Shown piece after piece: positions 15,578 to 32,411 of a stretch of DNA of 47,963 nucleotides. A program made the position numbers and the translations under genes. Within the stretch, counting starts at the first letter, position 1. The number at the start of each line of letters is the position of its first letter. The DNA is taken from positions 1 through 47,963 of the forward strand of contig JAUNAF010000006.1 in NCBI GenBank assembly GCA_030527715.1. Reading direction: 5' to 3'. A model generated the notes under the pieces. The model was given only the letters and a program-made list of their open reading frames with translations. It ran no database searches and was not told the DNA's origin. The DNA comes from Eubacteriales bacterium (GTDB lineage Bacteria; Bacillota; Clostridia; Lachnospirales; Lachnospiraceae).

Positions 15578-15945
15578 AATTCCTTCCTTCCGTTACATAA
15601 TATTAAGAAGCTGCTCCGTCCTGTTTCGTGGAGACAGCCTTCCCGCTGCAGAAATCATATCATATTTTTGAAGATTTGCGCCATTTTCTCCATGGATCTT
15701 TTCAGCATTTCATAGTTCCTACCCGTTTTCTTTCTATGGATTTCATTTCTTTTTCACTTTTTCTTAATTTGAAAAACACAGAATGAACACAAACTCCCTG
15801 TATACTTTCAGACATATTAGCAAAGAGCTAATATATTTCATAACTCGGCTTCACAGCGAAGGCTGTGAGGCACTCCCTCAAAATATTTTTTCTCTTTCCT
15901 CGAAAAAGGACTGTACCGAAAGTACAGTCCTTTTTCACGTTCTTC
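15578..15945. other. 368-bp intergenic region with two hairpins
   Basis: No gene seen. It holds the leader of the Nudix fusion gene, ATATTAGC/GCTAATAT (15814-15821/15827-15834, loop AAAGA), TCACAGC/GCTGTGA (15851-15857/15862-15868, loop GAAG), and the terminator of the PfkB gene at 15903-15935. The two hairpins are close together and lack a U tract on either side that would make them ordinary terminators. Confidence 0.5.
15903..15935 (-). terminator. Terminator of the PfkB kinase gene
   Basis: AAAAAGGACTGTAC (15903-15916) pairs perfectly with GTACAGTCCTTTTT (15922-15935), loop CGAAA; U tract on both strands. It follows the stop at 15946. Confidence 0.85.
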
Positions 15946-17067
15946 TTATTCACCGACTTTCTTCCAGCCAAGTCGGATCCTTTCTTTCAGTTCCTCCAGC
16001 GGCTTCAGACCGGAGAGTGAATCATACTCTGTCACACAGCAGGCTCCGGTACCGGCTGCCAGCTGCACACAGGTCTCCGGAGTCTCTCCATTGAGCATCG
16101 ATGTGAGAAATGCGGCAATGCTGGTATCTCCCGCTCCGGTCGCTGAGCGCAGGCGGTCCGGAACAAAGCTCTTCTCAAAGCCTTCTTTACTGCCCCATGC
16201 TGCTGTATCCAGCTCCAGCCTCTCGCTGATCGTGTCCAGAACCTCCTTTTCTGCCGTGCGATAGTACATTCCCGGTGCACCGCATTTGATCAGCAGCACC
16301 TTGACTCCGAGTCTCATGCATTCATCTGCCAGCGGACGAATATCCTTCTCTACATCCAGTACAGAAGTGATGTCCGCATTTCCCGCTCTTTCCTTCCATT
16401 CGGCAAGACGTTCCGGATCCAGCATATAGCAGAGTTCTTCCACACTCGGAACAAAAAAGTCGGTCAGCGGGAGTGTTCTCTCAAGGATCTTTCTCCAGTC
16501 TGCCTTTCCTGCTTCCGAAGTCTCATCCACTGCCGCGAGATCCAGTGAGACTGCTGCACCTGCTTCCATGACTCTGGTAAGAAGACGGATCAGCTCCTCA
16601 CCGTCATTCAAATACATTCTCTTTAACAGAGGCGGATATCCGAAATGGAACAGCGCTGCCTCCTTCAGTCCCTCCTCCGGGACATCCTCTGCACAGAACG
16701 TCTCATTTGCACCCGGATAATGAAGGAACATGCGGTCCAGTCCCGGAATCGCAAGCACGATCGTATAGGAAGTATCTACCTGCTCATCGATCAGCAGTCC
16801 CTGCTGTGCACCGTACTTTGCAAAAATATCATAGACGATCGTTCCAAATGCGTCTTTTCCGATCTTGCCCATCAGATAGGCATCCGCTCCAAGCACTTTC
16901 ATTGCCAGTCCTGTATTCGGCACTGCTCCTCCGGTCGCAATTTTGGCATTTCCGACATTTACCAGCTGACCAGGGGTCAGAAATTCTTCCACTCTCTCTA
17001 CCTTAGACTGCGTGATCGCAGGTGTGATATCTACGCAGGTGTGTCCTGCCACAATTACCTTTTTCAT
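15946..17067 (-). CDS. PfkB-family carbohydrate/nucleoside kinase
   Basis: 373 residues from the ATG at 17067 (GGAGG nine nt upstream). The N-terminal 'VIVAGHTCVDITPAI', the 'GKIGKDAFG' segment and the C-terminal catalytic signature 'SATGAGDTSIAAFLTSML' with the base Asp are those of the ribokinase/PfkB superfamily. At about 370 residues it is longer than ribokinase (about 310), with extra residues between about 200 and 290. It phosphorylates a sugar or nucleoside hydroxyl with ATP; the substrate cannot be read from the sequence. It is monocistronic, with its own promoter (17118-17146) and terminator, and stands apart from the main sugar locus. Confidence 0.8.
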   Translation of the reverse strand: MKKVIVAGHTCVDITPAITQSKVERVEEFLTPGQLVNVGNAKIATGGAVPNTGLAMKVLGADAYLMGKIGKDAFGTIVYDIFAKYGAQQGLLIDEQVDTSYTIVLAIPGLDRMFLHYPGANETFCAEDVPEEGLKEAALFHFGYPPLLKRMYLNDGEELIRLLTRVMEAGAAVSLDLAAVDETSEAGKADWRKILERTLPLTDFFVPSVEELCYMLDPERLAEWKERAGNADITSVLDVEKDIRPLADECMRLGVKVLLIKCGAPGMYYRTAEKEVLDTISERLELDTAAWGSKEGFEKSFVPDRLRSATGAGDTSIAAFLTSMLNGETPETCVQLAAGTGACCVTEYDSLSGLKPLEELKERIRLGWKKVGE

Positions 17068-17117
17068 GAATAATGTCCTCCGTAACGTATGCACATTGTC
17101 TGTGCAGATATAATATG

Positions 17118-17146
17118 ATTATACGTTTTTCTTCCGATTACGACAA
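17118..17146 (-). promoter_or_regulatory. Promoter of the PfkB kinase gene
   Basis: TTGTCG (17146-17141), 17-bp spacer, TATAAT (17123-17118). Confidence 0.7.
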
Positions 17147-17152
17147 GCAAAA

Positions 17153-17171
17153 GAATGTCCACCGGACATTC
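17153..17171. other. Perfect inverted repeat just upstream of the PfkB -35 box
   Basis: GAATGTCC (17153-17160) and GGACATTC (17164-17171) around ACC. It may be a second, weak terminator for cstA (UUUU follows on the minus strand) or an operator for the kinase promoter six bases downstream. Confidence 0.5.
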
Positions 17172-17190
17172 TCTTTGCATACCTGGCAGC

Positions 17191-17231
17191 AAAAATGCCC
17201 GGAAAGGAAGCTTTCACTTCTTTTCCGGGCA
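17191..17231 (-). terminator. Terminator of cstA
   Basis: GCCCGGAAA (17197-17205) with TTTCCGGGC (17222-17230), extended by GAAG/CTTC, loop CTTTCA; five U follow on the minus strand (17195-17191). Confidence 0.85.
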
Positions 17232-17264
17232 ATGCATCGCCAAGTACAAATATTCAGTTATTCA

Positions 17265-18971
17265 TTAGGCTCTCTTTGCCTGCTTCTTGAAGGTCTGAAT
17301 GCCCTCAACAACCAGTACTACAGCAAGAACTGCCATAGCTGCTGCAAAGATCAGCTGGAACCAGTCGCCCCATGCTGCAGCGCCGCCGCCTACCATCACG
17401 ATCTTGTTCTTGATGGTGATGATCAGGCTGCACAGTGTTGCAACCAGCATGAAGGTCATCGGGATGTAGAACATCTTGTTGTTCTTGCCGACCTGACCAA
17501 GCCAAGCTGCTACTGCAAGCAGTGCGATACCTGCGAGGAGCTGGTTTGCTGCACCGAAGAGTCCCCAGATCTGGCTCAGGCTCAGACCACCGAGGATACA
17601 TCCAACGATTACCATGAAGCTGGTACCAACCAGCGGATGTGCAAGGAACTTGCGAGCTCCGGTTGCATCCTTGTAAGTTGCCTCATCCTCACGCAGGAAC
17701 AGCTCTGAGAACATGAAACGGCTCAGACGTGTACCTGTATCCAGAGAGGTCAGTGCAAATACGGATACTGCCAGTGTCAGCAGTGCGTAGATGGTATTGT
17801 AAATACCGGACTCCTCGCCGCCGAACATCAGAGCGATACCACCTGCAAATGCTGCAGACGGAGAACCAAACTCACCAGCGGTGTATTTCTCAAATACCAT
17901 ACCTACTGCGATCAGGGAAACGATACCCAGTGCAGACTCGATCAGCATGGAACCGTAACCGATGACCTTTGCATCCTTCTCAGTAGCAAGCTGCTTAGAA
18001 GAAGTACCTGTAGAGATCAGGCTGTGGAAACCAGAGCATGCACCACATGCTACAGTGATGAACAGAGTCGGGAACAGCGGGCCTCTTGCAGTGTTCCATC
18101 CGGTGAATGCCGGGATGGTGAACTGAACGTTTCCGCGGAAAGCGGAAGAAACGATACCCAGTACTGCCAGGATCATCATGCCGTAAAGCAGGAAGCTGGA
18201 CAGATAGTCACGCGGCTGAAGCATGATCCATACCGGAAGCAGGGATGCGATGGTGATATAAACACCGATCAGCACGATCCAGCCTAAACGTCCGATAGCG
18301 ATACCGAAGTTCAGTCCGATGATAACGCTTACGATGATACCGCAGATACCGATGATGGTAGCCGGGAGAGTCTTAAGACCAAAACGGTTAGTCAGAATAC
18401 CGTAGATGATCGCCATTACGATGAAGAGAACGGATACCATAGCGGTGGTCTGATTACCGGTAGGATTCTTAACGATTCCTAAAGTTACCTCTGCGTCAGC
18501 AGCGGTGAAGAAAGTACCTGCTACGACGTTTACGAAAGATGCGATTACGAGGATCAGCACAAGCAGTGCGAAAATCGTAAAGAGCTTCTGAGCTCTGCGG
18601 CCCATAGAGGATTTGATGATCTCACCTACGGACTTACCTTCGTTACGGATAGATGCGAACAGAGAACCGAAGTCCTGAAGTCCACCGAAGAAAATACCTC
18701 CGATGATGCACCATAAAAATACCGGAACCCATCCGAATACAGATGCCTGGATCGGTCCGTTGATCGGGCCAGCACCTGCGATAGAGGAAAAGTGATGTCC
18801 CATCAGTACCGGTGCCGGAGCAGCAACGTAGTCTACGCCATCTTCCATCTCTACTGCCGGGGTTTTTCTTGTAGGATCAATACCCCACTGTTTTGCAAGC
18901 CAAGAGCCATATCCGACATAGCCGATTACCAGCAAAACAATTGCAGCAAGAATAATGAGTAATGCTGTCAT
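17265..18971 (-). CDS. cstA: CstA-family peptide/pyruvate transporter
   Basis: 568-residue polytopic membrane protein with many transmembrane segments. The family signature HHFSSIAGAGPI is at residues 59-70, followed by 'PVFLWCIIGGIFFGGLQDF' and 'ISTGTSSKQLATEKDA'. CstA proteins were first linked to peptide use during carbon starvation; the BtsT paralogue is a proton-coupled pyruvate transporter. The protein is shorter than E. coli CstA (about 700) as usual in Firmicutes. It is the distal gene of a three-gene unit whose first two members are unknown small proteins; the gap to the previous stop is 26 bp. Confidence 0.92.
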   Translation of the reverse strand: MTALLIILAAIVLLVIGYVGYGSWLAKQWGIDPTRKTPAVEMEDGVDYVAAPAPVLMGHHFSSIAGAGPINGPIQASVFGWVPVFLWCIIGGIFFGGLQDFGSLFASIRNEGKSVGEIIKSSMGRRAQKLFTIFALLVLILVIASFVNVVAGTFFTAADAEVTLGIVKNPTGNQTTAMVSVLFIVMAIIYGILTNRFGLKTLPATIIGICGIIVSVIIGLNFGIAIGRLGWIVLIGVYITIASLLPVWIMLQPRDYLSSFLLYGMMILAVLGIVSSAFRGNVQFTIPAFTGWNTARGPLFPTLFITVACGACSGFHSLISTGTSSKQLATEKDAKVIGYGSMLIESALGIVSLIAVGMVFEKYTAGEFGSPSAAFAGGIALMFGGEESGIYNTIYALLTLAVSVFALTSLDTGTRLSRFMFSELFLREDEATYKDATGARKFLAHPLVGTSFMVIVGCILGGLSLSQIWGLFGAANQLLAGIALLAVAAWLGQVGKNNKMFYIPMTFMLVATLCSLIITIKNKIVMVGGGAAAWGDWFQLIFAAAMAVLAVVLVVEGIQTFKKQAKRA

Positions 18972-19979: not shown

Positions 19980-20642
19980 CTACGCTTCTTTTAATTTTTC
20001 CTGAATAAGTTTTACCGCAGAGCTGGTTCCGACGCGTGCACAGCCTGCATTGATGAATGCCTCAAGATCTTCCACGCTGCGGACTCCGCCTGCTGCCTTC
20101 ATCTTTACGTCCGGTCCGATATGCTGTTTGAACAGCAGAATGTCCTCCATGGTTGCTCCGCCGGTTCCGAAGCCGGTGGAAGTCTTGATGAAATCAGCCT
20201 TTGCATTTGTCACTGCCTTGCAAAGAGCGATTTTCTCCTCCTCTGTCAGATAGCAGGTCTCGATGATGACTTTCAGGATCTTGTCGCCGGTCTCCTTTTT
20301 CAGAGCAGCGATCTCTTTCTCTACCGCATCAAAGTCACCATTCTTTACATCAGCAATGTTGACGACCATATCGATCTCATTTGCACCGTCAGCCAGTGCC
20401 TGCTTTACCTCTGCGATCTTCGCAGCAGTCACACTGTAACCCAGCGGGAAGCCTACTACCGTACAGATGTTGATCTTCTCACCATAGGTGTCGTGTACGC
20501 GCTTGATGTAAGTCGGCGGAATGCAGACAGAAGCAGTCTGAAATTCCACAGCCTCGTCACAGAGTTTTTTGATATCCTCCCATACTGCATAAGCCTTCAG
20601 CTGTGTGTGGTCTACATAATGAAGCATTTCTCTCGGATCCAT
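19980..20642 (-). CDS. deoC: Deoxyribose-phosphate aldolase
   Basis: 220 residues, full length. It cleaves 2-deoxyribose 5-phosphate to glyceraldehyde 3-phosphate and acetaldehyde. The N-terminal 'HYVDHTQLK' is the family start; Asp91 ('NEIDMVVN'), the Schiff-base Lys153 ('DFIKTSTGF') and Lys182 ('VKMKAAGG') are all present. Last gene of the rbsK-pdp-deoC run, 55 bp after pdp. It completes the breakdown of the deoxyribose part of nucleosides that pdp and deoB release. Confidence 0.96.
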   Translation of the reverse strand: MDPREMLHYVDHTQLKAYAVWEDIKKLCDEAVEFQTASVCIPPTYIKRVHDTYGEKINICTVVGFPLGYSVTAAKIAEVKQALADGANEIDMVVNIADVKNGDFDAVEKEIAALKKETGDKILKVIIETCYLTEEEKIALCKAVTNAKADFIKTSTGFGTGGATMEDILLFKQHIGPDVKMKAAGGVRSVEDLEAFINAGCARVGTSSAVKLIQEKLKEA

Positions 20643-20697: not shown

Positions 20698-22026
20698 TCA
20701 GTCGATATAATAGTCTACCTTACCTGCCTCGACTCTGGCAAGTACTTCTTTTCGTGCCTTCGGCTGCTCTGCGCCGATCTCGATTGCTCCGAGGAAGCGC
20801 TTTGCCGCAGGCTCCAGAAGCTCCTCCTTTGAGGAATACAGTCTTGCGAGAACCTCTCCCTTCTGCACGGTATCTCCTGTCTTTTTTGAGAGCACGATAC
20901 CTGCAGTCAGATCCAGACTGCTCTCCTTCTTCTCCCGCCCGGCACCGAGCATGGAGGAAGCGGTGCCGCATTCCTGTGCATTCATATGCATAAGGAAACC
21001 GCTTCTGTCTGCAGTCACCTCCATCACGAAAGGTGCCTTTGCAAATTTGGAAGTATCCTTCAGATATTCCGCATCTCCGCCCTGTGCTCTGGTCATTTCC
21101 AACAGCTTTTCGAAAGCGGAACCGTCTGTGATCACTTCCTGTGCACGCACTCTGCACTCCTCCAAGCTTCCAATGCCGGCAAGATACATCATATCTGAGG
21201 CAAGTGCCAGGCAGACTTCTTTCAGGTCCGCCGGACCGCCGCCCTTCAGCACCTCCACAGCTTCGATCACTTCAAGGTTGTTTCCGATCGCGTATCCAAG
21301 CGGCTGATCCATATCTGTGATCAGTGCAGCTGTCCGCTTTCCGGCGCGCTCTCCGATGGAGGTCATCTCCTTCGCCAGAGCGACAGCATCCTCCAGTTTC
21401 TTCATGAATGCACCGCTTCCGCAGGTGACATCCAGCAGGATCACATCGTTCCCTGCTGCCAGCTTTTTGCCCATGATGGATACAGCGATCAGCGGGATGC
21501 TGTCGATCGTACCCGTCACATCACGGAGTGCATACATCAGCTTATCGGCAGGAGTCAGATTTTTCGACTGCCCGATCACACAGAGTCCGGTGCGATTGAC
21601 TGTCTCAAAAAACTCTTCCTCATCCATATCGGTCTGAAATCCCGGGATACTCTCGAGCTTATCTACGGTACCTCCGGTATGTCCCAGTCCTCTTCCGGAC
21701 ATTTTTGCCACCTTCAGTCCGCAGGCAGCCACGATCGGCACGATCACCAGTGTGGTCTTGTCACCGACACCGCCGGTAGAATGTTTATCCACCTTTACTC
21801 CTTTGATCGGCGAAAGATCCACCGTATCACCGGAATGCTCTACCGCATCCGTCATCACGGATGTCTCCTGCTCCGTCATTCCCTGAAAATAGATGGCCAT
21901 CAGCATGGCTGACATCTGATAATCCGGAATCGAACCGTCTGTGAATCCGCGGATCATCCAGCGGATCTCCTCATCGTTCAGGGCGAGACCACTGCGTTTT
22001 TTAATGATCAGATCTACCATACGCAT
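20698..22026 (-). CDS. pdp: Pyrimidine-nucleoside phosphorylase
   Basis: 442 residues. It converts uridine, thymidine or deoxyuridine plus phosphate to base and (deoxy)ribose 1-phosphate. The ATG at 22026 follows GGAGGTGG; an upstream in-frame ATG lacks a site. The signature 'SGRGLGHTGGTVDKLE' (about 105-120) and 'KHSTGGVGDKTTL' are those of thymidine/pyrimidine phosphorylases. The C-terminal biotinyl-like domain with 'SLDLTAGIVLSKKTGD' is complete. It is 26 bp after rbsK. Homologues of about 435 residues in Bacillus are dual-specificity Pdp rather than DeoA. Confidence 0.93.
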   Translation of the reverse strand: MRMVDLIIKKRSGLALNDEEIRWMIRGFTDGSIPDYQMSAMLMAIYFQGMTEQETSVMTDAVEHSGDTVDLSPIKGVKVDKHSTGGVGDKTTLVIVPIVAACGLKVAKMSGRGLGHTGGTVDKLESIPGFQTDMDEEEFFETVNRTGLCVIGQSKNLTPADKLMYALRDVTGTIDSIPLIAVSIMGKKLAAGNDVILLDVTCGSGAFMKKLEDAVALAKEMTSIGERAGKRTAALITDMDQPLGYAIGNNLEVIEAVEVLKGGGPADLKEVCLALASDMMYLAGIGSLEECRVRAQEVITDGSAFEKLLEMTRAQGGDAEYLKDTSKFAKAPFVMEVTADRSGFLMHMNAQECGTASSMLGAGREKKESSLDLTAGIVLSKKTGDTVQKGEVLARLYSSKEELLEPAAKRFLGAIEIGAEQPKARKEVLARVEAGKVDYYID

Positions 22027-22052
22027 AGCGTCCACCTCCATTCACGAGTACA

Positions 22053-22988
22053 TCATTCTTTGATGCCTCGGCTATGCAGAAATTCTTCGACCTCCTCACG
22101 GGTCGGCATGGATGGTGTGGTGCCGAGCTTCTGAACAGACAATGCAGCGGTCGCATTTGCAAATACTGCCGCATCCCATACATTTCTGCCCTCCGATAGA
22201 GCTGTAAGGAAGCCTCCGTTAAAAGCATCTCCGGCTCCGGTGGTATCCAGGGCATTCACCTTAAATGCCGGCACCAGCTTTCTCTCCTCACCATCTGAAA
22301 TAAATACTCCCTGTGATCCCATGGTGATCAGGACCACTTTCACACCCTTCTGATGGAAGACCTCTGCCGCTCTGCAGGCTCCGTCAAAGTCCTTTACTTC
22401 GACTCCGGTCATCTCAAAGGCTTCCACCTCATTCGGAGTGACCATATATGCTCCAGCCAGGAATTCATCGGTGACTTCAGAGTACGGTGCTGTATTTACG
22501 ATCACCTTCGCACCGCACTGATTTGCAGCCTTCATGACTCTCTCGTTCGCATCCTGGTTTACCTCCAGCTGCAAAAGTACATAGGCTGCACCATTGATCA
22601 GCTCTGCTGCACGCTCCGTGTCTTCCTCTGAAAAAGTCGCACATGCACCCGGCACGATCACGATCTCATTCTCACTGCTGTTTTCATCCACCAGAATCAA
22701 TGCGATTCCGGTCTCTGTATCCTCCGCAAAAAAGATACCATCCTTCGGCATCTTCAGTTCATCCATCACATTCAGTGCCACATCCGCAAAGGAATCTCTT
22801 CCCATCTTTGTGATAACGGTGATCTCGGCACCTGTTTTATGCGCTGCCACTGCCTGATTAAATCCTTTTCCGCCTGCTCCCATTTTAAAGAAGGAACCCT
22901 TCACGGTTTCTCCCGGAACCGGAAGGTGGGGAGTACGTCCCATAAGATCCACAACATAGCTTCCGAATACAACCACTTTCTGTTTCAT
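22053..22988 (-). CDS. rbsK: Ribokinase
   Basis: 311 residues, the usual length. The ATG at 22988 has AGGAGGGG; a longer frame to 23042 would start in a repeat element. N-terminal 'GSYVVDLMGRTPHLPVPGETV', the 'GGKGFNQAVAA' loop and the C-terminal 'LDTTGAGDAFNGGF' with the catalytic Asp mark a ribokinase-type PfkB enzyme, acting on ribose or deoxyribose with ATP. It heads the rbsK-pdp-deoC run. No promoter was found between the aldolase terminator (23070-23095) and this gene; only a dispersed repeat (23007-23063) and the ribosome site lie there, so expression probably relies on read-through. Confidence 0.85.
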   Translation of the reverse strand: MKQKVVVFGSYVVDLMGRTPHLPVPGETVKGSFFKMGAGGKGFNQAVAAHKTGAEITVITKMGRDSFADVALNVMDELKMPKDGIFFAEDTETGIALILVDENSSENEIVIVPGACATFSEEDTERAAELINGAAYVLLQLEVNQDANERVMKAANQCGAKVIVNTAPYSEVTDEFLAGAYMVTPNEVEAFEMTGVEVKDFDGACRAAEVFHQKGVKVVLITMGSQGVFISDGEERKLVPAFKVNALDTTGAGDAFNGGFLTALSEGRNVWDAAVFANATAALSVQKLGTTPSMPTREEVEEFLHSRGIKE

Positions 22989-23006
22989 TACTACCCCTCC
23001 TGTTGA

Positions 23007-23063
23007 GTTGTCGCGTTGCTCCTCGAATGCTTGTGCAGGCACAGCATTCTCATCGCTGCTCGC
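23007..23063 (+). repeat. Dispersed 57-bp quasi-palindromic repeat, copy 1
   Basis: Same element as at 34187-34243 (minus) and 47857-47906 (plus, 5' end shortened). The core dyad is GAATGC (23025-23030) / GCATTC (23044-23049) with inner TGTGC/GCACA. It lies between the aldolase terminator and rbsK. See finding. Confidence 0.85.
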
Positions 23064-23108: not shown

Positions 23109-23957
23109 TTAGAATTTGGAAAGCTCCAGCTTCTTTACCAGGTAATCCATCAGAATGCCCTGAGCATACTTCGGATAATCGAAGAGTGCTGCACCGTCCG
23201 GATGCTCCTCAGTATACTTTCTCATGGTCTCATGATACAGATGGAAGAACTCTGTTCCTACGTTAAATTTGTTGATTCCGTTTACGAATGCCATATCCAG
23301 CTGATCATTCGGGATACCGCTTCCACCGTGAAGTACCAGCGGAGTATCGATCGCTGCGTTGATCTCGCTCAGACGCTGAATATCCAGCTTCGGAGTCTCT
23401 TTGTATACGCCGTGAGCGCTTCCGATCGCTACTGCAAGTGCATCAGCGCCGCTCTCCTCGATGTATTTCTTAGCAACTTCCGGTTTTGTATACAGATCCA
23501 GGTTCGCCTGATCAGACTTGTTAGCTGCAACACCAACATGTCCAAGCTCGCCCTCTACAGCTACGCCGAAAGCATGAGCGATCTTAACAACAAGCTTTGT
23601 ATTCTCGATGTTCTCCTCCAGCGGAAGCATGGAGCCGTCGTACATTACACAGGAGAATCCTGCCTTGATCGCACGGATGATATAGGATACGTCCTGGCAG
23701 TGATCCAGATGCAGACCAACCGGAACAGATACCTCTTCAGCTACACTCTTTACTGCAGCAGCGAAGGTCTCCGGATTGCAGGTGTTGTTGAGCTCTGCAT
23801 GCTCCGGATAGAGCATAACCAGCACCGGCTTATTTACCTTCTCAGCAGCGTGGATAACCGAGTAGATCATATTGTAATCGATACAGTTAAATGCGATTAC
23901 AGAGGTGTTGGCATCGCTAGCCATTTTCAGGATGTCTTTTACTGGTACAAGTGACAT
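23109..23957 (-). CDS. Class II fructose/tagatose-bisphosphate-type aldolase
   Basis: 282 residues. It splits a ketose 1-phosphate or bisphosphate to dihydroxyacetone phosphate and an aldehyde using a divalent metal. Metal ligands and catalytic residues are in place: Asp85-His86 ('LDHCQD'), Glu137 ('GELGHVG'), His182 ('GSAHG') and His210 ('LHGGSG'). Family members include FbaA, GatY/KbaY and several sugar-specific aldolases; the sequence alone does not decide. Position: 69 bp after dhaL in the same direction, so it is probably the third step of the DhaK/DhaL operon. A strong terminator follows. Confidence 0.88.
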   Translation of the reverse strand: MSLVPVKDILKMASDANTSVIAFNCIDYNMIYSVIHAAEKVNKPVLVMLYPEHAELNNTCNPETFAAAVKSVAEEVSVPVGLHLDHCQDVSYIIRAIKAGFSCVMYDGSMLPLEENIENTKLVVKIAHAFGVAVEGELGHVGVAANKSDQANLDLYTKPEVAKKYIEESGADALAVAIGSAHGVYKETPKLDIQRLSEINAAIDTPLVLHGGSGIPNDQLDMAFVNGINKFNVGTEFFHLYHETMRKYTEEHPDGAALFDYPKYAQGILMDYLVKKLELSKF

Positions 23958-24026: not shown

Positions 24027-24668
24027 TTATGCATCAACAGTAAAACTCTCAGCAAATGCTTCAAACATGATCGTTACTGACACCGCACCGCTGTCCGGAT
24101 GTCCGATCGTCTTCTCGCGGAAGTTCTTGGATCTTCCCATGCGAGATATCATATTTTTCGTCTTTTCCGCCCCTGCCTTCGCAGCGTCGGATGCCGCCTT
24201 AAGAGCTGCGGTAAATTCCTCTTTTGCGGCTGCGGAAGCAAGCAGTGCCTCATCGGCTTCGACCAGTGCATCATACATGGTCTTGTCTCCCCGCTTCACT
24301 CTACCCCTTTTTTCAATTGCTTTTGTACCACAATCAATATAGGCTGAAAAGTCTTCCAGTGTCAACTCCCTTTTTCCGTTTATTTCATTTAATCCGCCGA
24401 TAAACAGTGTTCCGAAAATAACTCCGGAGGTTCCGCCCATCACACGGATCAGTGTCATGCCGGATTCATGCAGCAGATCATACGGAAATTCAAAGTTTTT
24501 TTCCAGAAGCATCTTTTTCAATGCACTGAAACCTATGCGCATTCCGATGCCGTGATCACCGTCTCCGATCACTGTATCCAGCTCTGTCAGCATCGGCTCC
24601 GCCTGAATGATCGCATCGCAGACAGAGACAAGTGCGTTCTGCAGTTTGGCAGTTGTCATTTTTTCCAT
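24027..24668 (-). CDS. dhaL: DhaL-type ATP-binding subunit of a dihydroxyacetone-kinase-like enzyme
   Basis: 213 residues, the normal DhaL length, all-alpha. Metal/ATP residues Asp31, Asp36 and Asp38 are in 'LDTVIGDGDHG'; 'GGTSGVIFG' and 'RGDKTMYDAL' further along are typical, and 'GHPDSGA' takes the place of GHVDPGA. In PTS-dependent enzymes DhaL holds bound ADP and receives phosphate from DhaM; ATP-dependent kinases have the same domain fused. No DhaM gene is in the window, so an ATP-dependent three-part enzyme with the two DhaK-like proteins upstream is the simpler reading. GGGGGAG ribosome site, 11 bp after the previous stop. Confidence 0.85.
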   Translation of the reverse strand: MEKMTTAKLQNALVSVCDAIIQAEPMLTELDTVIGDGDHGIGMRIGFSALKKMLLEKNFEFPYDLLHESGMTLIRVMGGTSGVIFGTLFIGGLNEINGKRELTLEDFSAYIDCGTKAIEKRGRVKRGDKTMYDALVEADEALLASAAAKEEFTAALKAASDAAKAGAEKTKNMISRMGRSKNFREKTIGHPDSGAVSVTIMFEAFAESFTVDA

Positions 24669-24679
24669 AGTTTCTCCCC

Positions 24680-25648
24680 CTAGAGCACAAATGACTCCGC
24701 ATAAGTTCTCTTCGCAAGATATTTTTCCAGTTCCTCATCTGCACAGAACATCGTAACTGAAAATCCATAGGAAATATCCATCCGGATATAGTGTCCTGCA
24801 CTGACCCGCTGCAGCGGCTTTCTGGTCTCTGCATAGTTATGGAAATATTTTACAAAGGAAAACAGATCCTCATAGCCTGTCCGGAAGGTTCTGCTCACCA
24901 CCAGATACAGTTTTTCTCCAGGAAGCGGCTGCAGATCCTGGTAAAGATAATCGTACACATACTTTGCAGATTCCTCCAGGGAAAGACAGTTCTCGTGGAT
25001 GATCCTCGGATTTTCACCGGAGATCCCTTCTCCCAGCATGGTCTGTTTCTTTTCAAAATCATAGGTCACATTTAAGCTGCTGATCCTTCGATTTGCCCTG
25101 GTCAGAAGCTCATAGATCTCATCGAGACTTTTCCCTTCCACGGCAGCCTCTGAAGCGATCTTTGTCGTGAGCAGTACGCCTCCGATCAGCCCGGTACGCT
25201 CCTCTCTCTGTGCATCCGGATCCACGGAAAGGCAGTCATCCCTCACCTGAAACAGCTTTCCCCGGTAGCCCTCGAGCTCCAGAAGCTCCAGCGCAAGATC
25301 ATTGTTCAGCTGATCACCCATAAAATTATTATAGATCAGAAGATATCCCTCTTTGCTGTCGATATATTTCGCAGCCTCGTAAATATCATAGGCACTCGGC
25401 GCTGCAAAAGGACCTCCGTTGATCCCGACATCACAGAAATGATCCGCCGTGACAAATCCCGTTGCAAACGGCGCGCCAAAACCGCCCGCGCTTGCTATGA
25501 TATTCACGCGGTCCGATTCGATCGGCCGTCTCAGAAGCGCTCTTCCGCTGTAAGAATCTGCTATCGTCTGCACCATCTCAGGATAAACGATCGCCAGTCC
25601 CTGCGCGCTGTCCCTTGTCGCATATTCCGGATCTACCAGACATTTCAT
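24680..25648 (-). CDS. Divergent DhaK-like kinase subunit A, active-site His replaced
   Basis: 322 residues of the Dak1/DhaK family. 'IIASAGGFGAPFATGF' stands at the classic GGGSGHEP loop (Ala59 in place of His56 of E. coli), 'APSAYDIYEAA' and 'YNNFMGDQLNNDLA' match the substrate domain with the catalytic Asp kept (Asp112), and 'LGEGISGENP' stands where DhaK has GIHGEPG, so the His that binds dihydroxyacetone covalently is Ser210. Both substrate-side histidines are therefore missing. It is the second of two tandem DhaK paralogues, 24 bp after the first and 11 bp before dhaL. It may bind a different keto or aldo substrate, or be a regulatory partner of the other copy, as DhaQ is for DhaS in Lactococcus. 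Confidence 0.82.
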   Translation of the reverse strand: MKCLVDPEYATRDSAQGLAIVYPEMVQTIADSYSGRALLRRPIESDRVNIIASAGGFGAPFATGFVTADHFCDVGINGGPFAAPSAYDIYEAAKYIDSKEGYLLIYNNFMGDQLNNDLALELLELEGYRGKLFQVRDDCLSVDPDAQREERTGLIGGVLLTTKIASEAAVEGKSLDEIYELLTRANRRISSLNVTYDFEKKQTMLGEGISGENPRIIHENCLSLEESAKYVYDYLYQDLQPLPGEKLYLVVSRTFRTGYEDLFSFVKYFHNYAETRKPLQRVSAGHYIRMDISYGFSVTMFCADEELEKYLAKRTYAESFVL

Positions 25649-25672
25649 CGTTTCGTCACCCCATTTCCATTA

Positions 25673-26629
25673 TTACAGCACTATCCTTTTTCCGTCCCAG
25701 TACGGCGCTGTTATCTTATCAATACACATCACACTGACAAAAAATCCATGACTGTCCAGAAGATAGGTGAGATAGCCGGCATCTGCCTGAGTGATCGGAT
25801 GTCTGTCCGCCGCATATCGGCAGAGCTCCGAGGCAAACAGAATGCCTTCCTCACATCTTGTCTGATCCAGTCTGCTCACAAGCAGAACCAGCTCTTCCTC
25901 CGGCTGCGGCTGCAGATCCTGAACCAGCAGATCATAGACGGAAGCCGCTATACTCTTTCTGTCAAACTGCTCCGTGCAGGTGATTGCCGGGGGTTCTCCC
26001 GAAAAGCCGCTTCCCAGATAATATTCTTCTTTCGAGAAATCCAGTGTCACGGTGACAGAACTGATCCTTTCATTGGCATGTGCCACGATCCTGTATGTTT
26101 CATCCAGCGACAGTCCCTTTTCTGCGCAGGCGGCACCGATCTTGATCAGGTACAGAAGTCCGATCAGACCAGTACGTTCTGATCGTGGTGCGTCTTTTGG
26201 TACAGACAGGCAGTCGTCCGTGCATGGACACAGCCTGCTCTCTATCTGCTCCAGTTCCAGAAGTTCTGCCGCCAGGTCGTTATTCAGATAATCTCCCATA
26301 AAATTATTGTAGAGCAGAAGATAGCCTTTTTGGCTTCCGATATGCCTTGCCGTCTCGTAAATATCGTAGGCGCTTGGTGCAGATCGGATGTTTCCGTTCA
26401 CTGAGGCATCTGCCATTCCTTTCGAAACGTAACCAGTCGAAAGCGGATGACAACCGCCTCCGTTGCTGACGATCAGATTCACACGGTCTGTATCCATCCC
26501 CTTTTTCAGAAGTACACCGCCGCTGGACGCCCCGTCCATCATTTCGTATTTTCCCGGATAAAGCTCCGACAGGCTCCTGATAAACTCAGATACCATCGTA
26601 TCTGTATTTCCTAAATAATGATCCATCAT
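25673..26629 (-). CDS. Divergent DhaK-like kinase subunit B, first gene of the operon
   Basis: 318 residues from the Met at 26629 (a second Met at 26626 has a better spaced GGTG). A longer frame from 26677 is rejected because its first codons coincide with the -10 box of a near-consensus promoter. The N-terminus then aligns well with E. coli DhaK and with the downstream paralogue. 'SNGGGCHPLSTGYVSKGM' keeps a His (His61) near the classic position, Asp113 in 'NNFMGDYLNNDLA' is kept, but 'LGSGFSGEPP' again has Ser210 for the covalent His. The two paralogues share 'PSAYDIYE', 'LNNDLA.ELLELE' and 'ERTGLIG', so they come from duplication. Function, inferred: substrate-binding part of a heteromeric kinase. 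Confidence 0.8.
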   Translation of the reverse strand: MMDHYLGNTDTMVSEFIRSLSELYPGKYEMMDGASSGGVLLKKGMDTDRVNLIVSNGGGCHPLSTGYVSKGMADASVNGNIRSAPSAYDIYETARHIGSQKGYLLLYNNFMGDYLNNDLAAELLELEQIESRLCPCTDDCLSVPKDAPRSERTGLIGLLYLIKIGAACAEKGLSLDETYRIVAHANERISSVTVTLDFSKEEYYLGSGFSGEPPAITCTEQFDRKSIAASVYDLLVQDLQPQPEEELVLLVSRLDQTRCEEGILFASELCRYAADRHPITQADAGYLTYLLDSHGFFVSVMCIDKITAPYWDGKRIVL

Positions 26630-26667: not shown

Positions 26668-26696
26668 AATATATCATCGTGCTCTTTCAAAGTCAA
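26668..26696 (-). promoter_or_regulatory. Promoter of the dhaK-dhaK-dhaL-aldolase operon
   Basis: TTGACT (26696-26691), 17-bp spacer, TATATT (26673-26668). Predicted start near 26661, about 32 nt before the chosen first codon. The spacer contains CTTTCAAAG, related to the operator. Confidence 0.65.
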
Positions 26697-26979: not shown

Positions 26980-27756
26980 ATGTATTCCGAAGAACGCCAG
27001 GATAAGATCGAGCAGTATATATTAAAGAATGATTCCGCCAGCGTTCAGGAGCTGAGCAGTCTCTTCTCCGTTTCGGAGGTTACCATCCGCAAGGATCTGG
27101 AGGAACTGCAGAAGGGGAACCGTATCATACGCACACACGGCGGAGCAATGATCAAGTATTCCAATTCCGCACAGTTTTATTTTCAGGATCTGAAAGTAAA
27201 GTGTCCTTTTGAAAAGAAAATCATCGCCAGAAAGGCGATGGAATATATCTGTGACGGTGATGTCATCCTCCTGGACGGCTCCACCACCACAAACGAACTT
27301 GCCATTGCGATCGCTGCCAGTTCTCTCAAAGATCTCACGATCGTCACGACATCCCTGTCGGTTGCAATGCTCTTCAGCGACAAAGAACATTTTCCGATCT
27401 ATCTGATCGGCGGTTCGCTGAACAAGAAAATGAATACCTTATGCGGGGCTTACGCTGAACAGCAGATCGCCAGCTATTCCGTCGACAAAGCTTTTATCGG
27501 CATCAACGGTGTCGATCCCTATTTTGGCTTTTCCGCTTCGGAGCTTTCCGAAGTTGCCATGAAAAATGCGATCTTCCGTTCCTGTTCGCAGTGTTTTATC
27601 ATGGCGGATCATACCAAATTCGATAAGCGGTATTTTCTCAAGGTATTTGATCTGTCCGACAAGATCTGCCGTCTGATCACTGACGACCGACCGGATCTGA
27701 TCTCCTACGAGGAATATGAAAGCAGGATCCCGCTGGTACGCGTAAAAACACACTAG
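26980..27756 (+). CDS. DeoR/GlpR-family transcriptional regulator
   Basis: 258 residues, normal length. The helix-turn-helix is residues 20-56: 'SVQELSSLFSVSEVTIRKDL' then 'RTHGGAM', the family signature. The effector domain has 'ILLDGSTTTNELA' and 'ADHTKFDKR', which bind a phosphorylated sugar in characterised members. These proteins usually repress a divergent or downstream catabolic operon and are released by a sugar phosphate. Position between two divergent sugar operons, with a repeated CGAAATWATTYGAAAG element on both sides of the promoter region, supports that role. Start at 26980 has GGAGG. Confidence 0.92.
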   Translation: MYSEERQDKIEQYILKNDSASVQELSSLFSVSEVTIRKDLEELQKGNRIIRTHGGAMIKYSNSAQFYFQDLKVKCPFEKKIIARKAMEYICDGDVILLDGSTTTNELAIAIAASSLKDLTIVTTSLSVAMLFSDKEHFPIYLIGGSLNKKMNTLCGAYAEQQIASYSVDKAFIGINGVDPYFGFSASELSEVAMKNAIFRSCSQCFIMADHTKFDKRYFLKVFDLSDKICRLITDDRPDLISYEEYESRIPLVRVKTH

Positions 27757-27833: not shown

Positions 27834-28811
27834 ATGAAACTTAGAAAACTTGCAACATCTGCTATCGTCAGCGCATTGACCGTTGTTTCTCTCTCTGCAG
27901 TCGCTTTTGCAGGAAACAGCAAACCTCTTGAGATCGAAGGCGATTTTTCCGGTATGAACTGGGGCTTCATCGTAGGATCTTACGAGCACGTTTTCTACCA
28001 GAAGGTTGACGAAGGAATCCGTCTTGGCTGTACAGAGATCGGCTTAACAGAAGATCAGTTCAATATCACTGACTGTAACCTCGAAGCTGATAAAGCGATC
28101 AATGCGATCCAGAACTTCACAGCTAACAAGGTAAATGCTATCGCCCTTGCCTGCAACGACGCAGCAGGATGTGTTCCTGGCATTAATGAGGCAGCTGCAA
28201 ACGGAGTGGCAATGTTCAACTTCGACTCTAAGGCAGATGATCTTACAAACGTTATCTCTTTCGTTGGTACCGACAACTTCCAGGGTGGTGTTCTCGGCGG
28301 CGAAGAGCTGATCCGTCTTTCCAAAGAAGGCGATACCGTAGCAATCATCGGTAATCCGGAGTCTGTATCCACACTCGATCGTGAGAACGGTGCTCTGCAG
28401 GCACTCGAAGGATCCGGACGTACCGTCCTTTCCGGATACAACTATGAAGGTGATGCAAACCGTGCACAGGAGATCATGGAGACCATCCTCGTTGCAAATC
28501 CTGATTGTGCAGCAGTCTTCTGCGCAGGCGATCCGGCAGCAACCGGTGCTATGGCAGCCATCAAGGCAGCTGGTTCCAACTGTCTCGTAGTTGGTTTCGA
28601 TGGAAATCCGGAAGCATTAGAGGCAATGCTCGACGCTGAAAACGGCAAGACCTGGGTTTCTGAGATCGCTCAGGATCCGATCGGTATCGGCAGAGGCATC
28701 GTAGAGCAGATGGCTAAGTACTTCACCACCGGCGAAGTTGATGATCAGGTTATCATGATCGATCCGTACATCATCACCGCTGAGAACGCAGCTGACGAGT
28801 TAGCCGGCTGA
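27834..28811 (+). CDS. Sugar ABC importer substrate-binding protein (RbsB-like)
   Basis: 325 residues. Type I periplasmic-binding-protein fold: 'WGFIVGSYEHVFYQKVDEG', 'NLEADKAINAIQNF', 'AIALACNDAAGC', 'FVGTDNFQGGVLGGEELI' and 'LVVGFDGNPEAL' follow the order in ribose/galactose binding proteins. The N-terminus is a signal peptide ending AFA-GNS at residue 26; there is no Cys, so it is not a lipoprotein, which is unusual for a Gram-positive importer. AAGGAGGG ribosome site. A hairpin with a U tract follows the gene (28865-28894), as often seen to give the binding protein in excess over the ABC subunits. The ligand is probably a pentose or similar small sugar. Confidence 0.88.
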   Translation: MKLRKLATSAIVSALTVVSLSAVAFAGNSKPLEIEGDFSGMNWGFIVGSYEHVFYQKVDEGIRLGCTEIGLTEDQFNITDCNLEADKAINAIQNFTANKVNAIALACNDAAGCVPGINEAAANGVAMFNFDSKADDLTNVISFVGTDNFQGGVLGGEELIRLSKEGDTVAIIGNPESVSTLDRENGALQALEGSGRTVLSGYNYEGDANRAQEIMETILVANPDCAAVFCAGDPAATGAMAAIKAAGSNCLVVGFDGNPEALEAMLDAENGKTWVSEIAQDPIGIGRGIVEQMAKYFTTGEVDDQVIMIDPYIITAENAADELAG

Positions 28812-28894: not shown

Positions 28895-28921
28895 TTAACA
28901 AACGTGAAAGGAATGTTGTTT

Positions 28922-30415
28922 ATGGATGCTTGCTTACAGGTAAAAAACATTTCCAAAACTTTCCCCGGTGTAAAAGCCTTATCTGATGTCAGCATTGACT
29001 TTTTCCCCGGAGAAGCTCATGCTCTCGTCGGCGAAAATGGTGCCGGCAAATCCACATTGATAAAAATCATAGCTTCTGTATACACAGCCACCGAAGGAAA
29101 AGTCTATTTAGATGGAAAAGAATGTGCGTTCAGATCCCCCCGTGAAGCGATCGATGCCGGTATTTCCGTTATCCAGCAGGAACTCAGTATCGCTCCGGAT
29201 CTTACCGTAGCGCAGAACATCTTTCTCGGATGCGAGCCGCGCAAAGGGATCTGCCTTGATTATAAACGTATGGAACAGGATGCTCAGAAAGTACTCGACG
29301 ACATGGAGCTGAATATTGATGTCAAAGCTTACTGTCGTGATCTGACTGCTGCCGAACAGCAGATGGTCGAGATCGCCAAGGTCGTTTCCAAAAATTCCAA
29401 AGTAGTCATTCTGGATGAGCCGACCTCCTCTTTATCTGAAAAGGAGATCGAATCTCTTTTCGTTCAGGTGCGTCGTATGAAGGCAAACGGCGTTGCCGTG
29501 ATCTACGTTACCCACCGTATGAAGGAGCTGTTTGAGATCTGTGATCGTGTCACCATCTTCCGAGATGGCTGCAAGATGAAGGAAATGATGATCGCGGACA
29601 CTGATGAAAAAGAGATCGTGGCCAACATGATCGGTCGTTCCAACCTTACCGATTACTACAACCGCCATGAGCACCCGATCGGAGAAGAAGTCTTCCGCGT
29701 GGAAAACTTTTCCAAGGGATCTGTTTTCAAAAATATTAATTTCCACCTTAACAAAGGAGAGATCCTCGGCTTTTACGGACTGGTCGGCGCAGGCCGAACC
29801 GAGACCATGGAAGCGATCTTCGGAGCAGCCTCCCATGATTCCGGAAAAATGTATCTGCACGGTGAGGAGATTGTCTTCCACAAACCTTCCGATGCGATCC
29901 GCAAAAAGATCGGTTTTGTAACTGAGGACCGAAGAAGAACCGGTCTCCTTCTCGAAAAACCCATCTATGAAAATGTCGGTCTTCCAAGCCTCCCCGCACA
30001 CGGAAAACGAGGTCTGGTGAATACGCAGTGGGAGAAGGAAGTCTCTAAGGAATACAAAGAGAAGCTCGCCATCAAGGCACCTGACATCTCCACGATCACT
30101 GCCAATCTCTCCGGCGGAAATCAGCAGAAGGTAATTCTCGCAAAGTGGCTGGCGGCAAATTCAGAAATTATGATTCTCGATGAGCCGACGCGAGGAATTG
30201 ATGTAAATGCCAAATCCGAGTTCTATGCTCTGATGTACCAGTTTGTGGAAAACGGCGGATCGATCATCATGATCTCTTCCGAGATGCCTGAGATCATCGG
30301 TATTTCCGATCGTGTGTATGTCATGCGTGAGGGTGAGATCAGCGGAGAGCTCTTCTCAAACGAACTGTCTGAGCAGGCTCTGATCTTCTCTGCAAGTATT
30401 ACTTCGGATTCATAG
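28922..30415 (+). CDS. Sugar ABC importer ATPase with two ABC domains (RbsA-like)
   Basis: 497 residues, normal for RbsA/MglA. The start at 28922 has AAAGGA nine bases upstream; an earlier GTG in frame has none. First domain: Walker A 'GENGAGKST', 'LTAAEQQMVEIAK' signature and Walker B 'VVILDEPTSSL'. Second domain: 'GLVGAGRTETME' (degenerate Walker A, typical), 'LSGGNQQKVILAKWL' and 'IMILDEPTRGID'. It powers import together with the permease that follows; one protein serves as both ATPase halves. Confidence 0.95.
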   Translation: MDACLQVKNISKTFPGVKALSDVSIDFFPGEAHALVGENGAGKSTLIKIIASVYTATEGKVYLDGKECAFRSPREAIDAGISVIQQELSIAPDLTVAQNIFLGCEPRKGICLDYKRMEQDAQKVLDDMELNIDVKAYCRDLTAAEQQMVEIAKVVSKNSKVVILDEPTSSLSEKEIESLFVQVRRMKANGVAVIYVTHRMKELFEICDRVTIFRDGCKMKEMMIADTDEKEIVANMIGRSNLTDYYNRHEHPIGEEVFRVENFSKGSVFKNINFHLNKGEILGFYGLVGAGRTETMEAIFGAASHDSGKMYLHGEEIVFHKPSDAIRKKIGFVTEDRRRTGLLLEKPIYENVGLPSLPAHGKRGLVNTQWEKEVSKEYKEKLAIKAPDISTITANLSGGNQQKVILAKWLAANSEIMILDEPTRGIDVNAKSEFYALMYQFVENGGSIIMISSEMPEIIGISDRVYVMREGEISGELFSNELSEQALIFSASITSDS

Positions 30416-30443: not shown

Positions 30444-31436
30444 ATGAAAAACTTTGATATCAAAAAAGCGATTTCGAACAATGTCATCGTGGTATTTCTG
30501 ATTCTGCTCTGCCTGTTTTTCGGAGTCATGAATCACAACTTTTTCTCCAGCATTAATATCATGAACCTGCTGTCGCAGATGTGTGTAAATGCTCTGCTTG
30601 CATCCGGCCTTTCCTTTGCGATCATCCTCGGAGGTATCGATATTTCCGTAGGTTCCCAGATGGCTGTTACCGGTGTAGTCGCAGCGCTGATCGCTTCCAA
30701 GATCGGCAGCATGAACACCATCACTGCTCTCCTGGTTCTGATCCTCACCGCTATCGTGATCGGATGCATCACCGGCGGTATCATCGGCTCTCTGATCGCC
30801 TACGGCGGACTGATCCCGATGATCTGTACTCTGGCTTTTCTGACCATGCTCCGCGGTCTTGCCTACATCATCAGCGGCGGCGGTCCGATCTATGGACTGG
30901 ATTCCAACTTCGGCTGCCTCGGTGCAAGACGACTGATCGTGACAGAGAGCTTCCCGAACGGCATGATCCCGACCAGTGTTATCTTCACAGTGATCATCGT
31001 CTGCCTCATGCATTTCCTGCTTTCAAAAACGATCTACGGACGTCATGTCTTCGCTGTAGGTTCTAACAAGAATGTCGCTCACCTTGCAGGTATCGACGTC
31101 AAGAAAGTGACCCTGATCGGACACATCCTCTGTGCAGTCACCGCTTCCATGGCAGGTGTGGTAACCGCCTCCAAGCTTCAGAACGGACAGCCGAATATCG
31201 GTGAAGGATATGAGATGTTTGCGATCGCATCCTGCGTACTCGGCGGTACTTCCCTGATCGGCGGCCGCGGCTCTGTTGCCCGCGCAATGTTCGGTGTAGC
31301 TGTTATCGCAGTTATCAACAACGGTATGAATCTTCTGAACATTTCTGCTTACTGGCAGAAAGTCGTTATCGGCGGCATCATCATCATCGCTGTACTCGCC
31401 GATACTCTGCAGCAGAAACGTGCATCAAAGAACTGA
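30444..31436 (+). CDS. Sugar ABC importer permease (RbsC-like)
   Basis: 330 residues with about eight to ten transmembrane segments. 'GGIDISVGSQMAVTG' and 'HVFAVGSNKNVAHLAGIDVKK' are standard features of RbsC/MglC permeases. It forms the homodimeric channel for the importer. AAAGGGG ribosome site, 28 bp after the ATPase gene. Confidence 0.93.
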   Translation: MKNFDIKKAISNNVIVVFLILLCLFFGVMNHNFFSSINIMNLLSQMCVNALLASGLSFAIILGGIDISVGSQMAVTGVVAALIASKIGSMNTITALLVLILTAIVIGCITGGIIGSLIAYGGLIPMICTLAFLTMLRGLAYIISGGGPIYGLDSNFGCLGARRLIVTESFPNGMIPTSVIFTVIIVCLMHFLLSKTIYGRHVFAVGSNKNVAHLAGIDVKKVTLIGHILCAVTASMAGVVTASKLQNGQPNIGEGYEMFAIASCVLGGTSLIGGRGSVARAMFGVAVIAVINNGMNLLNISAYWQKVVIGGIIIIAVLADTLQQKRASKN

Positions 31437-31466: not shown

Positions 31467-32411
31467 ATGGCTGAGATCATTACTATGGGGGAACTGCTGG
31501 TTGAGATCATGAGACCGGCAGCGGATATTCCTTTATATGACAGTGATTATTTTCGGGGACCGTTTCCAAGCGGCGCCCCGGGGATCTTTATCAGTACAGT
31601 TGCAAGACTCGGACATTCCGCAGCCATCATCAGCGGAGTCGGCAAAGATGATTTCGGTGAAAACATTCTGAGACGCCTCAGAAAGGACGGCGTGGATCTT
31701 CGCCGCGTCCTTGTTTCCGACCAGGGCAATACCGGTGTTGCCTTCGTCACCTATTTTGCTGACGGAGAGCGCAAATTTCTCTTCTACATGGACAATTCTC
31801 CGTGTGTTATGGCAAAGGCTCCGGAGCTTACCGAAGATCTTGCAGAAGCGAAATATATGCATGTGATGGGCTGTTCTCTGATGTCCTCAGTTCCATTTGC
31901 AGAAGAGATCATAAAAACCATCGATCTGCTGCGCGGACAGGGTACAAAGATCAGTTTCGATCCGAATGTTCGACTGGAAATGATGCGTGATCCTGTTGTC
32001 CTGACTATGCTTCAGGATGTCTTCCGCAAATCCAGCATTCTGATGCCTGGTCTTGGCGAGCTCAAGATGCTCACCGGTCAGGAGGATCCTGAGGAAGCGG
32101 TAAAGAAAGCCTTTGAGAGCGAATGTCTTGAAGTTCTTGTGTTAAAGAACGGATCCAAAGGTTCAAGGATCTATACACGAAACGGTCTGGAACTGGAGAT
32201 GGGCATCTATCAGGTGGAACAGCTGGATGCCACCGGAGCAGGCGACAGCTATGACGCAGCCTTTCTCTGCGGTCTTGCCGAAGGCAGATCTCTGGAAGAG
32301 GCCGCAAAAATGGGTGCCGCTGCCGGTGCATTGAATGCAGCCGCCTTCGGCCCGATGGAAGGAGATATCTCTCCGGAAACCGTTTATGAAATGATACAAA
32401 AACATGCCTGA
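31467..32411 (+). CDS. PfkB-family sugar kinase (KdgK/fructokinase-like)
   Basis: 314 residues, complete. N-terminal 'ITMGELLVEIMRP', 'GPFPSGAPGIFISTVARLG' and 'GKDDFGENILRRLRKDGVD' are as in 2-keto-3-deoxygluconokinase and fructokinase-like PfkB enzymes; C-terminal 'QLDATGAGDSYDAAFLCGL' holds the anion hole and the catalytic Asp. It phosphorylates the imported sugar, probably the first intracellular step, with the DhaK/DhaL kinase acting at another position or on a later product. Last gene of the plus-strand operon; a strong terminator follows. Confidence 0.88.
   Translation: MAEIITMGELLVEIMRPAADIPLYDSDYFRGPFPSGAPGIFISTVARLGHSAAIISGVGKDDFGENILRRLRKDGVDLRRVLVSDQGNTGVAFVTYFADGERKFLFYMDNSPCVMAKAPELTEDLAEAKYMHVMGCSLMSSVPFAEEIIKTIDLLRGQGTKISFDPNVRLEMMRDPVVLTMLQDVFRKSSILMPGLGELKMLTGQEDPEEAVKKAFESECLEVLVLKNGSKGSRIYTRNGLELEMGIYQVEQLDATGAGDSYDAAFLCGLAEGRSLEEAAKMGAAAGALNAAAFGPMEGDISPETVYEMIQKHA

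Follow-up and report, generated by a model that had tools for sequence, protein, structure and literature searches.

A rare clade of DhaK-family proteins with serine at the covalent histidine position, linked to DhaL, a class II aldolase and a sugar transporter

The locus

The window (the whole stretch of DNA that was analyzed, 47,963 nucleotides from a member of the Lachnospiraceae, contig JAUNAF010000006.1) encodes two adjacent Dak1 proteins on the minus strand, which we will call DhaK_A and DhaK_B. DhaK_A (24680–25648) is an open reading frame of 322 amino acids and matches PF02733 with 125.9 bits; DhaK_B (25673–26629, or 26677) matches it with 151.3 bits (cutoff 31.4), and alignment supports both assignments. 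DhaK_B has 334 amino acids if it begins at 26677 and 318 if it begins at an in-frame ATG at 26629. We favor 26629, because the shorter protein is nearer in length to its ortholog at another locus (L032; 322 amino acids) and because this start agrees with the original prediction, which was made from the sequence alone.

The same-strand run continues with DhaL, the nucleotide-binding subunit (24027–24668, minus strand; PF02734, 165.4 bits; TIGR02365, 161.4 bits, above the cutoff of 138.3), and a class II aldolase whose subfamily is specific to the cassette (23109–23957, minus strand; PF01116), in which the HLDH, ELG, AHG and HGGSG motifs are kept and one loop is altered. Next come a ribokinase-like PfkB protein (22053–23042, minus strand; TIGR02152, 309.7 bits, above the cutoff of 299.65), a pyrimidine-nucleoside phosphorylase (20698–22041, minus strand; NF004747, 578.7 bits, above the cutoff of 559), and a deoxyribose-phosphate aldolase-like protein (19980–20642, minus strand; PF01791). 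We considered that the deo genes might be part of the pathway, but rejected this: among 19 loci with similar DhaKs, they are near the cassette only in the window and in L032.

On the plus strand, and divergent from the DhaK genes, are a DeoR-family regulator (26980–27756; PF00455 and PF08220) and the genes of a ribose/allose-type ABC transporter. These encode the sugar-binding protein (27834–28811; PF13407), the ATPase (28904–30415; the best model is AraG-like, with 557 bits, below its cutoff of 689), and the permease (30444–31436; named from gene order and its translation, and 89% identical to its counterpart in L032). The best solved relatives of the sugar-binding protein are ribose-, allose- and general sugar-binding proteins, with no clear ligand. 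The plus strand also encodes a PfkB kinase that resembles tagatose kinase (31467–32411; NF049991, 263.6 bits, below the cutoff of 420).

Active-site residues of DhaK_A and DhaK_B

The textbook hallmark of dihydroxyacetone kinases is that a histidine captures the substrate covalently. In E. coli DhaK, as reportedly found by Shi and colleagues in 2011, His218 forms the hemiaminal, His56 helps to form it, and Asp109 is the base. According to PMC6429413, the Citrobacter and human enzymes bind the triose covalently, at His220/His221, and a hemiaminal is common to both groups of kinases; in passages of PMC4661931 we found nothing on the covalent histidine. We found nothing on a DhaK without this histidine in the open-access literature that we searched.

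The original prediction held that both copies lack the covalent histidine, and that an alignment with histidine at that position would count against it. When aligned by MAFFT with DhaK of E. coli K-12 (from NC_000913.3), both proteins have serine in the column of His218, and a profile search of DhaK chains in the PDB also places serine opposite the histidine of the Lactococcus and E. coli proteins. Since the two methods agree, we rejected an alignment artifact. The serine stands in a G-x-G-x-S-x-E frame and is, as predicted, residue 210 of DhaK_A (codon at 25019–25021, minus strand, as computed from the alignment numbering and the start of the open reading frame) and of the 318-residue reading of DhaK_B (codon TCG at 26000–26002, minus strand, from the alignment). 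We will use the E. coli numbering and refer to it as Ser218.

Most of the other predicted features held up as well. DhaK_A has no histidine at the His56 site (Gly/Ala is found there), the equivalent of Asp109 is kept in both proteins, and DhaL has its three metal-binding aspartates, in an Asp...GDGDHG motif. The histidine that was noticed near this site in DhaK_B is present, but it lies at E. coli column 57, with cysteine at 56. Because it is one column off, and because both of the DhaK_B orthologs that we saw (L032 and L033) have tyrosine instead, this histidine is unlikely to be catalytic.

Neither protein reaches the cutoff of the DhaK equivalog TIGR02363 (108.9 bits for DhaK_A and 112.0 for DhaK_B; cutoff 406.25), although this cutoff is also missed by the two DhaKs with the covalent histidine (His-type) in the same genome (349.6 and 340.2 bits). 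The DhaQ model TIGR02362 (cutoff 413.25) is missed as well, with 68.7 bits for DhaK_A and 83.9 for DhaK_B.

A separate clade of Ser-type proteins

Ser-type proteins form a separate, rare clade of DhaK among the genomes sampled. We defined the clade as the two proteins from the window and 19 matches to a profile (A1) with scores of at least 281 bits. The profile was built from 15 sequences of the clade, which score high by construction; four divergent members outside the building set score 281, 295, 345, and 354 bits, and the best matches from outside the clade score 203 and 206 bits. Serine is more than a chance feature of the clade, as it is found in 21/21 sequences that reach 281 bits, but these sequences are related, with some nearly identical (99% between those from L034 and L035), and thus do not represent 21 separate events.

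The main alignment had 76 rows, with 20 Ser218, 55 His218, and 1 Asn218; one more Ser row was added later. The groups were labelled by residue 218, while the spacing, the tree and the profile scores are independent of this label. The His-type rows comprise E. coli DhaK, those matches of our sequence searches that returned loci, and two sequences found beside clade cassettes, one of them a duplicate; other matches were left unaligned. Before counting, we removed L003, L004, L025, and L030 (repeats of genes counted elsewhere), L024 and L031 (a split gene), and one duplicate row.

Besides Ser218 and Asp109, all 21 members have Glu220, Asn104, Ala80, Tyr84, Asn113, and Asp114. Column 104 shows Lys/Gly in other DhaKs, and the motif NNFMGDxLNND is near-invariant in the clade. 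Residue 56 is never histidine (Asn in 7, Asp in 5, Gly in 4, Cys in 3, and Arg in 2). A 13-residue segment before position 218 is missing in 21/21 members and kept in 56/56 other DhaKs, so that columns 183 and 218 are 22 residues apart in every Ser row versus 35 in the 55 His rows and the Asn row.

In a maximum-likelihood tree with 19 Ser rows, a single branch (support 100/99) separates all of these rows from the others, which answers whether they form their own clade, as the original prediction had asked. A reduced tree with 20 Ser rows, E. coli DhaK and every third His row gave 100/100 for the same branch. (L035 was left out of the trees and the Asn row, L019, out of the reduced one; the midpoint root is for drawing only.) Long branches were flagged in both trees, including those of L019 and L018, which meet the Ser clade.

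The Asn row is a DhaK from the window's family (L019, 1339–2376, plus strand) with asparagine at both E. coli positions 56 and 218 and with the canonical 35-residue spacing. Its gene order is DeoR-DhaK-DhaL-PfkB, where the PfkB label comes from the sequence (32 bits against RbsK). It is possibly a separate loss of the covalent histidine.

A scan of genome contigs with DhaK_B returned 14 loci, and profile A1 added three further genomes among 299 of the same family, as well as a second copy in the genome with L033. Counting the window's genome each time, the clade is present in 5/299 genomes of the family (E ≤ 1e-70), 2/392 of the order, and 1/398 of the phylum (E cutoff 1e-65 for both), and only the window's own genome had clade-level scores in the sample of the class (1/391); these samples overlap, and only part of the first-look candidates was scored in larger genomes. 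Several named relatives came from ruminant gut samples and four are in Synergistota; the cassette is common to Bacillota and Synergistota. A plasmid search with DhaK_A returned 239 records, all below 60% identity (at most 29.2% among the 15 matches listed).

DhaK_A and DhaK_B are sister subclades within the clade (support 99/96 and 99/98), and the pair arose by duplication inside it, in the window's lineage. DhaK_B is found in 3 genomes (the window's, G004, and G1394), each of which also has DhaK_A and one DhaL of a Ser-type cassette; the contigs that carry A and B are not the same in G1394. One genome, G635 (89% complete), has A without B.

Gene neighborhoods

We compared the 19 loci with Ser-type DhaKs, many of which are on short contigs from metagenome-assembled genomes. 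DhaL follows the Ser-type DhaK in 17 of them, either directly or past one DeoR gene (L036, L040, and L042). It does not follow in L033 and L043, and the L043 contig ends inside DhaK. At least two of the three genes of a ribose-type ABC transporter are present in 17/19 loci; they are missing from L092 (a 4.3-kb contig) and L093, both of which have A, DhaL, and the aldolase. The class II aldolase is present in 16/19 loci. It is missing from L043, from L033, where B stands beside the transporter without DhaL or aldolase, and from L088, where DhaL is succeeded at the contig's end, in the aldolase's place, by the first part of a His-type DhaK. A PfkB protein similar to tagatose kinase is found in 9/19 loci; the five of these that we scanned score 249–267 bits versus a cutoff of 420. 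KbaY/KbaZ-like aldolase genes are near the cassette in four loci (L036, L037, L040, and L042), and KbaY alone in L087. Near the L087 cassette, in genome G454 (15122–17912, minus strand), we also noticed one DUF4432 protein and one RbsD/FucU protein, together with a protein of 435 residues for which Pfam gave no match at E ≤ 0.001.

Sequence motifs of the partners are conserved. D..IGDGDHG is kept in 15/15 aligned cassette DhaLs, and HLDH, ELG, AHG, HGGSG, and NVGTE are kept in 12/12 aligned cassette aldolases. One aldolase loop reads YPEH, DPRH, or YPPD in the cassettes, versus TPGT in E. coli GatY/KbaY and FSNGG in FbaA. Solved relatives of the cassette aldolase include E. coli YdjI (6ofu), a ketose-1-phosphate aldolase; this makes a ketose 1-phosphate a plausible substrate for the cassette enzyme.

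A single Ser-type DhaK with a single DhaL is the arrangement in 14/19 loci. In 12 of these 14 there is no further DhaK, and in the other two (L045 and L088) a His-type one is nearby; a His-type DhaK-DhaL pair is near the cassette in L045 and also in L032. At the level of genomes, the Ser-type DhaK is the only Dak1 protein that we found in 8 of 17 clade genomes, not counting the window's (G1395, G1396, G1397, G1399, G1400, G1401, G1403, and G1404; searches with the clade profile at E ≤ 1e-20 and with Pfam Dak1 at E ≤ 0.001 agreed). Genome G1394 has two Dak1 proteins, both Ser-type, and the remaining 8 also have His-type or unclassified ones. In 7 of the 8 genomes with a sole Dak1, there is no stand-alone DhaL other than that of the cassette, and further Dak2 matches lie in frames of 427–574 residues; the eighth, G1404, has no stand-alone DhaL and its contig ends inside DhaK. 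In these genomes the Ser-type protein cannot merely assist a His-type DhaK. Instead it must act with DhaL on its own, to the extent that this can be judged from metagenome-assembled genomes whose completeness is not given.

The window's genome has two His-type DhaKs besides A and B. One DhaK-DhaL pair is flanked by fucose-isomerase-like and D-lyxose-isomerase genes (L049, 5678–9668, minus strand), which suggests that sugar pathways are served by His-type copies as well. The other pair (L048, 4241–12042, plus strand) is followed by genes for TRAP-transporter-like proteins (labelled from their translations), a phosphoglycerate-dehydrogenase-like protein, and a DapA-like protein.

We found no match to DhaM (TIGR02364) in the window's genome, while E. 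coli, L. lactis, and H. volcanii controls were positive; as this genome is 91.5% complete, the absence is not proven. The phosphoryl donor is probably ATP, given that DhaM was not found.

Comparison of the window with L032 shows 68% identity for DhaK_A, 60% for DhaK_B, and 71% for DhaL, versus 86–91% for the transporter proteins, 87% for the aldolase, and 85% for a His-type DhaK of both genomes. The kinase subunits are matched in divergence by DeoR (66%), RbsK (73%), and PyNP (74%). The faster divergence of A, B, and DhaL could reflect relaxed constraint or adaptation.

Comparison with known systems

Like the PTS-dependent DhaKs of E. coli and L. lactis, the Ser-type proteins belong to the Dak1 family, have Asp109 and a GxGx[H/S]xE frame, and are encoded next to a separate DhaL gene. 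They differ in having serine for His218, no His56, asparagine for Lys104, and the 13-residue deletion, and unlike in DhaKLM systems there is no match to DhaM in the window's genome. The presence of a second DhaK paralog beside DhaK in the window recalls DhaQ (TIGR02362), a coactivator from L. lactis, but both proteins score far below the DhaQ cutoff and 12 of the 14 single-copy clade loci show no further DhaK. The erythrulose kinases LerK and DerK, like other DhaK-family sugar kinases, also come from sugar pathways with transporters; they are described as fused and His-type, which would set the clade apart from them. The ATP-dependent kinases of Citrobacter and human (DAK and TKFC) share with the Ser-type system the K and L parts and its probable use of ATP. 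But in these enzymes K and L are one chain and triose is held on His220/His221 (PMC6429413), while here there are two genes and a serine.

Proposed role of the Ser-type proteins

The best explanation for these observations as a whole is probably that Ser-type DhaK and DhaL form a kinase whose substrate, a ketose or a ketose phosphate, is bound non-covalently and made ready for the aldolase. The ABC transporter would feed a sugar catabolic pathway encoded at the locus. DhaL, as the nucleotide subunit, and Ser218-type DhaK, as the substrate subunit, would then make up the kinase, which is probably ATP-dependent. The covalent-capture step would have been lost along with His218 and His56, with Asp109 retained for phosphoryl transfer. 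Given this pattern of residues, the substrate is most likely a larger ketose or ketose phosphate that is held non-covalently, possibly in ring form; it is from the gene neighbors that we infer this class of substrate. The loss of 13 residues and the presence of Asn104 suggest that the substrate pocket has been reshaped. The neighboring class II aldolase would then cleave the product, a ketose 1-phosphate or a bisphosphate. Duplication of the DhaK gene in the window's lineage would have given A and B, with a single cassette DhaL for both.

The original prediction had offered two readings: a kinase for another substrate, or a two-subunit enzyme with an active subunit and a helper. A kinase for another substrate is supported, indirectly, by the separate clade, by the joint loss of His218 and His56 with Asp109 kept, and by the usual linkage to a sugar transporter, DhaL, and the aldolase. 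A helper is not needed to explain the missing histidine, because a single Ser-type DhaK accompanies one DhaL in 14/19 loci and is the sole Dak1 protein in 8/17 genomes.

A helper might still have evolved in the window's lineage, where one copy (more likely B) would be a non-catalytic, DhaQ-like partner or sensor of A, and A with DhaL would be the only kinase. All three genomes with B also have A and one DhaL of a Ser-type cassette, while A occurs without B in G635; B has cysteine at column 56, where single-copy relatives have Asn, Asp, or Arg; and in L033, B is next to a transporter without DhaL. However, B keeps Asp109, Asn104, Glu220, and the Ser218 frame, just as A and the single-copy proteins do. 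A also departs at column 56 (Gly), the end branches are alike (0.26 for A and 0.30 for B), and the absence of B from G635 is unsure in a genome that is 89% complete. So we consider a helper role for B to be unlikely, though it would be compatible with the kinase explanation as applied to the clade's other members. It is also possible that A and B form a heteromer, or that they are two substrate subunits with one DhaL in common.

We also considered that these might be ordinary dihydroxyacetone or triose kinases that tolerate loss of the covalent bond. They are Dak1 proteins with Asp109, the neighboring class II aldolase yields trioses, and the H56N mutant of E. coli DhaK is said to bind dihydroxyacetone non-covalently. 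But this seems quite improbable given that both histidines are lost, Lys/Gly104 is replaced by Asn, and the 13-residue deletion is fixed across the whole clade. Furthermore, the window's genome already has two His-type DhaKs, and the closest relatives of the linked sugar-binding protein are of the ribose and allose type. If Ser218 were instead a nucleophile that held the ketose as a hemiketal, in place of the histidine's hemiaminal, this would explain why serine is found in 21/21 members, which a merely vacated site would not require. Yet the His56 partner is lost and serine hydroxyls form hemiketals poorly without activation, so we think this very unlikely. Finally, the divergence between the window and L032, which is faster than for the transporter and the aldolase, might hint that A and B are decaying, non-functional paralogs. 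This is hard to credit, as their reading frames are open, NNFMGDxLNND is near-invariant in the clade, and the cassette is common to Bacillota and Synergistota.

Returning to the kinase with non-covalent binding, we lean somewhat towards regarding it as a new subfamily: DhaK-DhaL kinases that would form no hemiaminal, that would act on a larger and possibly cyclic sugar (a ketose or its phosphate), and that would supply the kinase step in a cassette for ketose catabolism in gut and rumen Bacillota and Synergistota. DhaK_A and DhaK_B are best filed as Dak1 proteins and as a variant of the DhaK-DhaL kinase, and not as proven dihydroxyacetone kinases.

Significance

The observation is more general than two genes in one window: a whole subfamily of DhaK lacks the covalent histidine. 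If our proposal is correct, then automatic naming of such genes as dihydroxyacetone kinase is misleading, and the clade, which has lost the capture machinery while keeping the partner subunit and the aspartate, would serve as a natural experiment on the purpose of the covalent bond. The proposal would also supply the kinase for an unassigned sugar pathway of gut and rumen bacteria.
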